A DNA stretch of 37,141 nucleotides from the IMG/VR virus record IMGVR_UViG_3300008113_009670, positions 1 to 37,141 of that record. One strand, given 5' to 3'. Made by a program: the position numbers and the translations under genes. This document shows, piece after piece, positions 4,408 through 17,203 of this stretch (positions within the stretch are counted from its first letter, which is position 1; each line of letters opens with the position of its first letter). This DNA is from a virus. The notes under the pieces were generated by a model. The model was not told the DNA's origin. It did not search any database and saw nothing but the letters and a program-made list of their open reading frames with translations.

Positions 4408-4818
4408 ATGTTAATATTTAATTGCATTTCTTGTAAAAAAATTGTTGAAAGAAAACATCATTTTAGCTATGACAACATATATTGTAGTAATAAATGTCAA
4501 AAAGATTTTGAAGGAAAACGAAAAGTTACTTTATGGGTTGAAGGTAAAATACAACCTACAAAATCTATAGTGGCTAGATATTTGAAAGAATATAAAGGCT
4601 ACAAATGTGAAAGCTGTAATATTGATGAATGGAATAATATCCCAATAACATTAGAAATAGATCATATTGATGGTAATTCTTCTAATAACGATCCTTCTAA
4701 TTTTAGATATCTTTGCCCAAACTGTCATTCACAAACATCTTCTTACAAAGGTGCTAATAGGGGTAGAGGTCGACCAAAAGATACTAAAAATAATACAATA
4801 CAACGCTCTTATAGTTAA
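4408..4818 (+). CDS. HNH homing endonuclease
   Basis: 136 residues. An N-terminal zinc-binding knuckle CISCKK ... CSNKC is followed by a second cysteine pair CESC and the HNH core EIDHIDGNSSNNDPSNFRYLCPNCHSQT (His/Asn/His set with CxxC zinc ligands). The C-terminus is a basic tail (GRGRPKDTKNN) that may bind DNA. The stop lies 14 bases inside tRNA-Thr(AGT). Upstream is a broken tRNA 5' half, so the gene seems to have entered the tRNA array by homing. Late promoter and hairpin leader just ahead. Confidence 0.88.
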   Translation: MLIFNCISCKKIVERKHHFSYDNIYCSNKCQKDFEGKRKVTLWVEGKIQPTKSIVARYLKEYKGYKCESCNIDEWNNIPITLEIDHIDGNSSNNDPSNFRYLCPNCHSQTSSYKGANRGRGRPKDTKNNTIQRSYS

Positions 4819-4878
4819 ATGGTATAACAGTTGATTAGTAATCATCTATTGGGAGTTCGATTCTCTCTAAGAGCACCA
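4805..4878 (+). tRNA. tRNA-Thr(AGT), identity less certain
   Basis: Acceptor GCTCTTA/TAAGAGC, D arm GTTA/TAAC, T arm GGGAG-TTCGATT-CTCTC, encoded CCA. The anticodon stem GTTGA/TCATC has one T-T mismatch; its loop TTAGTAA gives AGT. The 5' end overlaps the stop of the HNH gene. Confidence 0.75.
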
Positions 4879-9135: not shown

Positions 9136-9351
9136 ATGTCATTGATGACACCAGAAGACATAGAACATTATCAAACTAGGTTAGATCGGATTCTTCAAAA
9201 AGATACGATTGATTCCTGGACATATGTTAAAGTTCTTCAACATGAAATTGAACATCTTAAAAGTCAATTTCAAGATCATGATACTGGTCATTTGAGAACA
9301 GCTGTTAGTGTTCTTGAGAATCGTGTACTAGAATTACGTATAGAAATGTAA
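9136..9351 (+). CDS. Small helical phage protein
   Basis: 71 residues, nearly all helical with a heptad-like pattern (about 10-70; IEHYQTRLDRILQK, VLQHEIEHLKSQF, AVSVLENRVLELRIEM), consistent with a coiled coil. Good ribosome binding site AGGAG 7 bases upstream. No family recognised. It lies between an HNH gene and tRNA-Gly(TCC). Confidence 0.7.
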   Translation: MSLMTPEDIEHYQTRLDRILQKDTIDSWTYVKVLQHEIEHLKSQFQDHDTGHLRTAVSVLENRVLELRIEM

Positions 9352-9360
9352 TAACAAATT

Positions 9361-9434
9361 GCGGGTATGGTATATGGGTTGTGCCCCAGCCTTCCAAGCT
9401 GTAGAAACCAGTTCGAGTCTGGTTACCCGCTCCA
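9361..9434 (+). tRNA. tRNA-Gly(TCC)
   Basis: Acceptor GCGGGTA/TACCCGC, anticodon stem CAGC/GCTG with loop CTTCCAA, T loop TTCGAGT, encoded CCA. Second glycine tRNA of the array. Confidence 0.93.
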
Positions 9435-9436
9435 AT

Positions 9437-9571
9437 ATTCAACAGGCAGTGTAGTATATGCCGGTTATGGGTCGCTCTCATGGCGAGGTCGGGGAGGCGG
9501 TGCCCTCATAACCTTGGTAACCCGTGCACTGTAAAGAGGATGCATACTCGTTCCTGTTGAATCTTTTTTTT
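9437..9571 (+). ncRNA. Candidate structured RNA with pseudoknot and U-tract
   Basis: The gap between tRNA-Gly(TCC) and an HNH gene has no open frame of note but dense base pairing. Outer helix ATTCAACAGG (9437-9446) with CCTGTTGAAT (9553-9562), 10 perfect pairs, followed by C and eight Ts. Inside: 9446-9453 with 9525-9532 (8 pairs, two G-U); GGTTATG (9463-9469) with CATAACC (9507-9513); TCGC/GCGA hairpin (9472-9486). AGTAT..TGC (9453-9461) can pair with GCATACT (9542-9548), crossing the second helix as a pseudoknot. GGTTA can also pair with TAACC (9518-9522), giving a switchable fold. It does not match any RNA class that I recognise. Confidence 0.6.
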
Positions 9572-9603
9572 GGAGTGACCCTTTGTTGCAAAAACTTGCA
9601 ATT

Positions 9604-9628
9604 TATAAATACTCCATATGGAGGTATT
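9604..9628 (+). promoter_or_regulatory. Late promoter and ribosome-binding-site hairpin of the HNH gene at 9633
   Basis: TATAAATA (9604-9611) overlaps the left arm AATACTCC (9608-9615); loop ATAT; right arm GGAGGTATT (9620-9628) with one bulged G. The right arm contains the GGAGG ribosome binding site for ATG 9633, so the site is buried in any transcript that enters from upstream. Confidence 0.75.
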
Positions 9629-9632
9629 AAAT

Positions 9633-10175
9633 ATGTGGAATTGTAAACATTGTAATAAAGGGTTTAATTATACTAGAACTACCGAAAAAGCAAACCATTC
9701 ACGTCATTGCGATTTAAATCCTAAAAAACTTGAGAGTTATGCTCTTAATATTGAAATAATTAACAAAAGAGTAGATAATAAACTTGGCAAATATCAAATG
9801 TTTGATGTTAATTGCCAAGCCTGTAACAAATTATATTATGTAAGAGAAAGATCTAAATCATTTCCTTCAAAAAAATACTATTTTTGTTCTAGAAATTGTG
9901 CTAACTCAATTGGTGGTAAAGCAAAGGCAGAAAAATACCACTATGATGAAGTAGCTACATATACTACTGTTGCATGGAGATATCACGAAAAGAAATGTGT
10001 AGCATGTGGTGAAGATAAGATTGTTGCAGTACATCATTTAAATGAAATACACTCTGATAACGATCCTAAAAATCTCGTACCTTTATGTCCTACACACCAC
10101 CAGTATGTACATAGTAGATATAAGTATTTGGTAGAAGATAAAATTAATTGTTATTTAAAAGAAAAATGGGGCTAG
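9633..10175 (+). CDS. HNH homing endonuclease
   Basis: 180 residues. ATG 9633 is chosen over ATG 9618 because GGAGG lies 8 bases before it and inside the longer version. Zinc-knuckle pairs: CKHCNKGF at the N-terminus, CQACNKLY and CSRNC in the middle, CVACGEDK before the core. HNH core VHHLNEIHSDNDPKNLVPLCPTHHQYVHS at about 138-166. The multiple CxxC pairs suggest a zinc-stabilised DNA-binding N-terminus. The stop lies 8 bases inside tRNA-Ala, a typical tight fit of a mobile gene in a tRNA array. Confidence 0.88.
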   Translation: MWNCKHCNKGFNYTRTTEKANHSRHCDLNPKKLESYALNIEIINKRVDNKLGKYQMFDVNCQACNKLYYVRERSKSFPSKKYYFCSRNCANSIGGKAKAEKYHYDEVATYTTVAWRYHEKKCVACGEDKIVAVHHLNEIHSDNDPKNLVPLCPTHHQYVHSRYKYLVEDKINCYLKEKWG

Positions 10176-15420: not shown

Positions 15421-15510
15421 ATGGTAAAACGATATGATGTCTTTACTAAAAAGTGGTATGTTGGGTTCTGGATTGGTCGTACCTTTAAAATTATTGGTAC
15501 AGTAGAATAA
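15421..15510 (+). CDS. Very small protein (29 residues) upstream of guaC
   Basis: ATG 15421 is preceded by AAGGAG at ideal distance and the stop overlaps the guaC start as TAATG, so it is very probably translated and coupled to guaC. The sequence [20 protein letters not shown] is basic and aromatic with a short beta-like end (TFKIIGTVE). Function unknown; a leader-peptide role for guaC is possible. Confidence 0.65.
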
Positions 15511-16628
15511 TGCGTATTGATAATGAACTCAAACTTGATTTTAAAGATGTACTCCTAAGACCTAAACGCAGTACACTTACTTCCAGAAAAGAAGTAGATC
15601 TTTTCCGTCAATATACTTTTCGTAATAGTCAGATGGAATATTCTGGTATTCCTATCATGGCCGCTAATATGGATGGTGTGGGTACACGTAGAATAGCATC
15701 TTCATTGGCTAATACAGGTTTATTTACTTGTTTAGTTAAACATTACACACAAGAAGAAATAGTTGAATATCTACGCGATTCAAATATATTAGATCTTCGT
15801 GTACAAGATCATACCGCTATGAGTATCGGTATTGGCGAAGAAGATCTAAACAAGCTTCATCATGTTTACAGCCATTCAAGCAAATTAAAATATGTTTGTA
15901 TTGATGTTGCAAACGGTTATACAGAACGTTTTATTGATGTAGTCAAACATGCAAGAAACAATTATCCTTTACTTACAATTATTGCAGGTAATGTTGTTAC
16001 TGGTGATATTACAGAGGAGTTAATTCTTGCTGGAGCTGATATCGTTAAAGTGGGCATTGGTCCTGGTTCTGTTTGCACTACCCGTATTAAGACTGGTGTT
16101 GGCTATCCGCAACTCTCAGCGGTTATCGAGTGTGCAGACGCTGCTCATGGACTTGGTGGGCATATCATTGCTGATGGTGGTTGTACTTCTCCTGGCGATG
16201 TTGCTAAAGCATTTGCAGCTGGTGCTGACTTTGTAATGCTTGGTGGTATGCTTGCTGGCCACGATGAAGGTGGTGGAGAACTGTTTACTAAATATCTCCA
16301 TACAGGTGAATGGAAATATGATCGTGATTGGGATACCTATAAACCAATTACTGAGGAAAAGAAATACATTAAATTTTATGGAATGAGCTCTAAAGCTGCC
16401 AATGATAAACATTTTGGTGGTCTTAAGGAATACCGCTCTTCAGAAGGAAGAGAGGTTCTTGTACCGTATAAAGGTAAAATATCTGATACAGTACAAGATA
16501 TACTAGGTGGATTGAGATCGGCATGTACGTACGTGGGAGCTTCTAAGTTAAAGTATCTTAGTAAGTGTACAACATTTGTTCGTGTTACTCAACAATATAA
16601 CAATGTTTTCGAAAGGAACACTATATGA
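15510..16628 (+). CDS. guaC: GMP reductase (IMPDH/GMPR family)
   Basis: 372 residues, close to bacterial GuaC (about 347). It starts with the GMPR-type [20 protein letters not shown], continues with [22 protein letters not shown] and the catalytic Cys loop [20 protein letters not shown] near residue 190, then the phosphate-binding [28 protein letters not shown] and the flap region. No CBS domains, which favours GMP reductase over IMP dehydrogenase. It turns GMP into IMP with NADPH, returning guanine nucleotides to the adenine branch; this fits the low GC content of the phage. Coupled to the small gene upstream and overlaps the transporter gene downstream (ATGA). Confidence 0.9.
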
Positions 16629-17203
16629 TTAATTTCTCAGAAGTAAATAAAAGTCTTGCATTAAAGCTTATGCTAGTTCATGTATTCATCATTGGACTTG
16701 CAAATTATATTGTTCAATTTCCTCTTGAAGTATTTGGATTCAAAGCATCATGGGCTATGTTTCTATTTCCATTAGTTCTTGTAGCAACCGACTTAACTAC
16801 ACGTCTTACTAACAAACATCAATCAAGAGTTGTTGTTGGTATGGCTTTTATTCCAGCAGCAATTATTAGTGCTGCTCTCTCTGATTGGCGTATTGGTGTA
16901 GCTTCAGCTGTTGCTTATCTCATAGGCCAATTGTTTGACGTAACTGTATTTCAACAGGTCCGTGAAAAATTTAAAGCATGGTGGGTAGCACCATTTGCTT
17001 CTGGTATCTTTGCTAACGTTGTAGACACATATGCATTCTTTGGTGCAGCATTCTATAATAGCACTAATGAATATATGGCAGCTAATTGGCTTGCAATTGC
17101 AAATACCGATGTTGTTTTCAAGACTATTATCAGCTTGATTATTATCCTTCCGATTTATGGTGTCTTGCTCAACTACCTCCTTAACAAAGCTAAACAAGAC
17201 TAA
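16625..17203 (+). CDS. yhhQ: Queuosine precursor transporter (YhhQ/VUT family)
   Basis: 192 residues with about six transmembrane segments. Diagnostic VUT-family pieces: [17 protein letters not shown] (about 50-66), [20 protein letters not shown] (about 98-117), [20 protein letters not shown] (about 131-150) and a C-terminal [20 protein letters not shown]. Bacterial YhhQ imports 7-deazaguanine precursors (preQ0/preQ1) for queuosine in tRNAs with GUN anticodons. It overlaps guaC by four bases. In phages such genes may serve tRNA queuosine (tRNA-His(GTG) is in this window) or deazaguanine DNA modification; no preQ0 insertion enzyme was seen here. Confidence 0.88.

Follow-up and report, generated by a model that had tools for sequence, protein, structure and literature searches.

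A pseudoknotted phage RNA family without a match in Rfam, with a palindromic hairpin loop predicted to join two copies

GOLLD and ROOL are phage and prophage RNAs that lie near tRNA islands, and cryo-EM has shown them to be homo-oligomers (PMC12286853). The kissing loops of GOLLD are supported by palindrome covariation, and OLE, a homodimer made of RNA alone, has a palindromic loop that covaries (PMC12286853). In this cryo-EM study of OLE, ROOL, and GOLLD, the argument from adjacent bases in a palindrome was applied to OLE and GOLLD, where the evidence consists of a few switches of palindromes with four or two bases (PMC12286853). The profiles of the three RNAs used there come from Rfam (PMC12286853). 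Phage T4 has two stable RNAs within its tRNA cluster, rnaC of 139 nt and rnaD of 119 nt. The small phage RNA of phi29, pRNA, has a three-way junction and pairs between molecules through its loops; its family is included in Rfam. In HIV-1, the dimerisation initiation site is a hairpin whose loop carries a kissing palindrome of six bases with purines on either side.

The RNA described here comes from the window, i.e., the whole stretch of DNA that was analysed, which is a phage fragment of 37,141 bases from IMG/VR and contains 20 tRNA genes. A preliminary description had placed a structured RNA in the tRNA array, and the RNA unit indeed lies within it, between tRNA-Gly (9361-9434) and a gene at 9618-10175 that was assigned by eye to the HNH type. 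Homing endonuclease-like genes are present on the flanks of this copy. The region had been said to contain no gene, and no conserved ORF was found in it. Taken by itself, the sequence of this RNA has a fold that moderately beats that of its dinucleotide shuffles (z = -2.61; 6 of 200 shuffles were equally good). The features are as follows, with pairing values for the family.

9361..9434, + strand: tRNA-Gly (UCC), directly 5' of the RNA (ARAGORN)
9437..9562, + strand: whole RNA unit from P1 to P1', 126 nt (model R1 match at 9436-9563, 136 bits)
9437..9446 / 9553..9562, + strand: P1, outer helix of ten perfect pairs in the window; 79.7% paired at the outer end and 99.2% in the inner part, where up to four pair types occur
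9447..9453 / 9525..9531, + strand: P2, 95.9% paired, with both-side changes in all 7 pairs
9464..9484, + strand: P3 hairpin (stem 9464-9470/9478-9484, loop 9471-9477), 97.7% paired
9486..9489 / 9511..9514, + strand: P4 (AGGU / ACCU), 99.5% paired
9490..9493 / 9521..9524, + strand: P6 (CGGG / CCCG), crossing P4, 99.7% paired, with CG to GC double changes
9494..9507, + strand: P5 hairpin within the pseudoknot (9494-9497/9504-9507), about 85% paired, in a region of variable length and rough alignment
9515..9520, + strand: unpaired linker UGGNAA between P4' and P6', a candidate binding site; at least 96% identity in 5 of 6 columns (94 sequences)
9536..9549, + strand: P7 hairpin with an 8-nt loop (stem 9536-9538/9547-9549), 98.9% paired, with both-side changes in 3 of 3 pairs
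9540..9545, + strand: AUGCAU, a self-complementary hexanucleotide within the P7 loop and a predicted intermolecular kissing contact; 99.3% self-complementary cells

The window sequence is one of those from which model R1 was built, and the evidence for the family comes from the other members. The ten outer pairs of the preliminary description are confirmed. The run of U noted earlier is present as well (eight U at 9564-9571, directly 3' of the outer helix), but it does not hold as a terminator-like 3' end of the family, being missing in the relatives L006 and L009. Two other loci in the window were recorded. A tRNA-Thr at 4805-4878, which several relatives also have, bears the anticodon AGU; threonine tRNAs of the bacterial type do not usually have A as the first anticodon base. 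At 15510-17203, judged by eye, a protein like IMP dehydrogenase/GMP reductase is followed by a membrane protein like queuosine-precursor transporters.

Homologs were retrieved in several ways. Among the relatives of the window phage found via two neighbouring proteins, L006 and L009/L010 carry the RNA; L009 and L010 are identical across it, and AAC/GTT of the outer helix in the window becomes GGT/ACC in L009. An exact 18-mer of the 3' part, which included the P7 loop, was found in 45 viral stretches, and all 45 have a relative of the RNA. A second, independent query consisted of two short core strings flanking a variable gap, with P7 excluded, and gave a much wider member set than the 18-mer among the matches listed. 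A third query, in bacterial and archaeal genomes, yielded 14 stretches, mainly from Bradyrhizobium; other bacterial carriers were Neorhizobium, Pelagibacterium, Acetobacteraceae, Verrucomicrobia, and Planctomycetota. In total, at least 94 full-length members of 118-194 nt, mostly on phage contigs, were aligned to model R1, and the DNA similarity of their flanks sorts the 94 aligned members into 48 unrelated contexts. The range of lengths argues against coding. Two matches, L285 (Ramlibacter), which came from the third query, and L306, were rejected as chance matches. The three matches to an exact 16-mer of the 5' half look coding, without a relative of the RNA nearby.

Searches with blastn gave no match for six family variants against INPHARED phages or for two variants against PLSDB plasmids; therefore, no annotated isolate with the RNA is known. 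The RNA is rare in sampled bacterial genomes, with 3/81 in the genus Bradyrhizobium, 1/150 in one order, 2/385 in the class (one judged spurious), and 2/195 in a phylum, counts that include the centre genomes picked as carriers. At the gathering scores of its families, Rfam 15 found only tRNAs in the window and its relatives, and none of these matches lies on the RNA. When E values up to 5 were allowed for window positions 9350-9650, the upstream tRNA and a chance match to caiA (9585-9635) were the only hits; at the loci of eight divergent members, with E up to 1, a single unrelated chance match was obtained. GOLLD, ROOL, and OLE gave no match to the RNA family among the Rfam results. ARAGORN made no call on the RNA either, in line with the earlier opinion that it is neither a tRNA nor a tmRNA. 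No paper describing the RNA was found in the open-access literature.

The strong support for the fold comes from covariation. For 39 named pairs in 93 distinct sequences, 94.2% of the cells are standard-paired, and 36 of the 39 pairs show changes on both sides. Shuffling lowers the paired share to 67.9%, and sliding the partners lowers it to 29-44%. The shuffles ignore relatedness, which is addressed by the slid-partner controls and by a count of one member per context. In this count (48 members), pairing is 98.5% for P1 (59.1% shuffled), 98.9% for P2 (69.8%), 99.3% for P7 (67.3%), and 98.6% for the palindrome (56.6%), and the support for P3 is likewise strong. Model R1 lacks P3, P4, and the palindrome, so their pairing is not a product of the fit. 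P4 and P6 form an H-type pseudoknot enclosing P5. Both are near-invariant in the one-per-context count (P4 99.0% vs. 96.5% shuffled; P6 99.5% vs. 94.9%), partly as a consequence of the search pattern, in which much of both was fixed, and their independent support is a handful of double changes. P4 occurs as AGGU/ACCU, AACU/AGUU, UGGU/ACCA, and GGGA/UCCC. The helices contain 111 G-U cells. By these comparative measures, the RNA is real and structured, with a compact core (P2, P3, and the P4/P6 pseudoknot around P5) inside P1 and a 3' hairpin, P7. The length of P3 ranges from 16 to 62 nt across the family. One and the same P3 tip, approximately GCAGTGGAGC.TGGCTTCGACCC, recurs in L162, L187, L188, L208, L216, L240, and others whose contexts differ, and it looks like an exchanged module.

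The preliminary description had proposed crossing helices and a new phage non-coding RNA, and had named covariation in related phages as the check, with its absence or a match to a known Rfam family as grounds for refutation. The homologs covary strongly, and no Rfam family matches. A pseudoknot does exist, but its proposed partners were wrong. The pairing of 9453-9461 with 9542-9548 is complementary in the window and no better than shuffled across the 94 homologs, in which stems of at least 5 between the first of these stretches and P7 number 11, with about 10.7 expected. The alternative pairing of 9463-9467 with 9518-9522 is not borne out either: two invariant G-C columns fit it, but the next pair is standard in just 18 of 93 sequences.

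The most informative feature of the RNA, the palindromic P7 loop, had been missed in that description. Among the matches listed, 68 members were found without P7 in the query, and the P7 hexamer is self-complementary in 66 of them. Sixty of the 68 have Watson-Crick palindromes and 6 have palindromes with G-U; the remaining two (L194 and L252) have no perfect palindrome in register. Sixteen different self-complementary hexamers occur in this listed set. The loop of L187, for instance, has GGGCCC. The register was set by eye for a few P7 loops that fall in insert columns. Palindromes of six bases also occur at the tip of the hairpin in six further divergent members that are not in the alignment (L184, L185, L218, L241, L257, and L262). 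Adjacent central bases cannot pair within one chain, and the palindrome constraint therefore points to pairing between two molecules. This suggests a loop-loop homodimer, in which two copies of the RNA would kiss via their P7 loops.

P7 shares with the HIV-1 site the palindrome of six bases between purines in its loop; nothing beyond this loop principle is common to the two, and the remaining RNA is unrelated. OLE is much larger than the present RNA, with which it shares a covarying palindromic loop. GOLLD and ROOL resemble the family in being phage-borne, non-protein, and often adjoining tRNAs, and they have symmetric kissing loops of the kind predicted here; however, they are several-fold longer and form cages. 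The RNA here has one small symmetric loop, which makes a dimer probable instead. Palindrome covariation of the kind described for these large RNAs is present in the family, with fewer switches in the published cases (PMC12286853).

In a variant group (L189, L200, L201, L226, and L272), P7 is absent altogether. By eye, these RNAs share the core and have a tRNA-like frame, in which an acceptor-like helix of roughly 7 bp is seen and a T-arm-like hairpin replaces P7. The single strand before this hairpin contains a palindrome of four bases, GGCC or GUAC. The 3' end of T4 rnaC (L305, T4 69000-76000) also forms a perfect T-arm-like hairpin, CCGGGTTCGAATCCCGG, whose layout is like that of the variant group and whose sequence is unlike it. 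The comparison of the window RNA with T4 RNAs C and D made in the preliminary description holds for position, and the sizes are similar, but it does not extend to homology. The best score of model R1 in the T4 tRNA region with filters off was 11.2 bits, which is not significant and lies outside rnaC and rnaD, and blastn against phages gave no match.

The genomic contexts bear on how the RNA is made and where it acts. In 23 of the 94 members, from 10 contexts and with ten tRNA isotypes, the distance from the end of a tRNA to the start of the RNA is -1 to 2 nt. The RNA lies directly behind the tRNA CCA end, a second tRNA often follows within 10 nt downstream, and the RNA thus takes its place in the arrays as a further tRNA would. 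With such a start, tRNA processing would free the 5' end of the RNA, and judging from this position, the RNA is probably released by tRNA processing in the tRNA-adjacent members. Most members are outside tRNA arrays. Terminase, replication, lysis, and HNH genes are among their neighbours, and no neighbour is common to all 48 contexts. Neither a constant downstream gene nor an expression platform, by which a cis-regulatory riboswitch is recognised, was found across the 48 contexts. Because the neighbours vary, the RNA is probably trans-acting rather than a cis-element.

Some loci show other arrangements. In L049 (1457-1545), a close relative, the first strands of P1 and P2 are kept after tRNA-Gly and then give way to a tRNA-like but degenerate sequence, whose anticodon loop has CAU and which seems to have replaced the RNA. 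In Bradyrhizobium (L283/L293 and L287/L290), the chromosome has a pair of RNA copies separated by 4-6 kb, in a region of stress- or metabolism-looking genes where a prophage is not obvious. Copies in the same genome have the identical palindrome CTGCAG.

We favour, with some confidence, a stand-alone trans-acting phage RNA that is dimeric via P7, processed by tRNA enzymes in arrays, and perhaps used as a protein scaffold or decoy. In tRNA-rich phages, the RNA would be transcribed as a further unit of the tRNA array, and tRNA end processing would cut it out of the array transcript. Two copies would join by kissing of the P7 loops into a dimer with two-fold symmetry, which may offer the surface of the conserved core to a host or phage protein or to a ribonucleoprotein. 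The unpaired stretches conserved in sequence, namely CGG before P3, CGAG, and UGGNAA between P4' and P6', are likely to form this predicted binding surface. In this least certain part of the reading, the RNA may act as a scaffold or decoy during infection, and a role as a dimeric protein-binding scaffold or decoy is our best guess.

The main rivals to the scaffold or decoy role are functions in anti-defence and in packaging. An anti-defence RNA would neutralise an RNase or toxin of the host, or a defence that attacks tRNAs, like the pseudoknotted type III antitoxins. The compact pseudoknot, phage-borne and sporadic distribution, and adjoining tRNA genes fit this role, which is nevertheless unlikely: the core is conserved among very different phages, unlike a fast-changing mimic, and a toxin neighbour was not seen among the named families. 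In packaging, the dimer would be part of the terminase motor or its regulator, functionally like phi29 pRNA. By frequency alone, terminase genes are the commonest named neighbours (phrog_2, 15, 675, 1482, and others; Sf6-type small subunits), and in Pelagibacterium L286 the RNA lies just 5' of genes that by eye are putative small and large terminase subunits. A three-way junction and, as predicted here, intermolecular loop pairing are shared with pRNA. However, terminase contexts are a minority, many members being in tRNA arrays, replication regions, and bacterial chromosomes. Furthermore, pRNA has two mutually complementary loops, whereas the single self-complementary loop here would give dimers and not rings. 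The family is not confined to phages with phi29-type motors, and it has no match in Rfam, which holds the pRNA family. We consider packaging quite improbable.

The same palindromes are symmetric in DNA too, and with the homing endonuclease-like genes around the window copy they could mark a DNA-level element, i.e., a site of recombination, nicking, or protein binding with a dyad in duplex DNA. This reading is very unlikely, since the G-U cells and the pseudoknot fit RNA, the palindrome letters vary freely while self-complementarity is kept, unlike in a protein site, and the position directly behind tRNA CCA ends fits transcript processing. No more credible is a self-cleaving or otherwise catalytic RNA with its active site in the pseudoknot core; small ribozymes also have pseudoknots with invariant unpaired bases, but no ribozyme family of Rfam matched and a conserved cleavage-site context outside P1 is not evident. 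Finally, a tRNA-operon hairpin that is just a spacer or terminator, without a function of its own, as the long closing helix and U-tract of the window might suggest, can practically be dismissed, being contradicted by the covariation, by the absence of the U-tract in the closest relatives, by core conservation far beyond the need of a terminator, and by the location of most members outside tRNA arrays.

The stand-alone dimeric RNA may, by a slightly better than even judgement, represent a widespread new class of symmetric homodimers with a near-invariant pseudoknotted core that act in trans during infection by unrelated phages. Phage structured RNAs and kissing dimers are known as wider kinds; what is new, as judged from Rfam 15 and the open-access literature, is this family with its anatomy. 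The RNA class has no Rfam relative and shows strong covariation, and its carriers are phages whose gene contents differ widely as well as a few bacterial chromosomes. For an RNA homodimer, hexamers kept self-complementary in so many forms are comparative evidence of unusual clarity. The RNA is small enough to be made and tested with ease, and the old question of the role of non-tRNA stable RNAs in phage tRNA clusters becomes directly testable.
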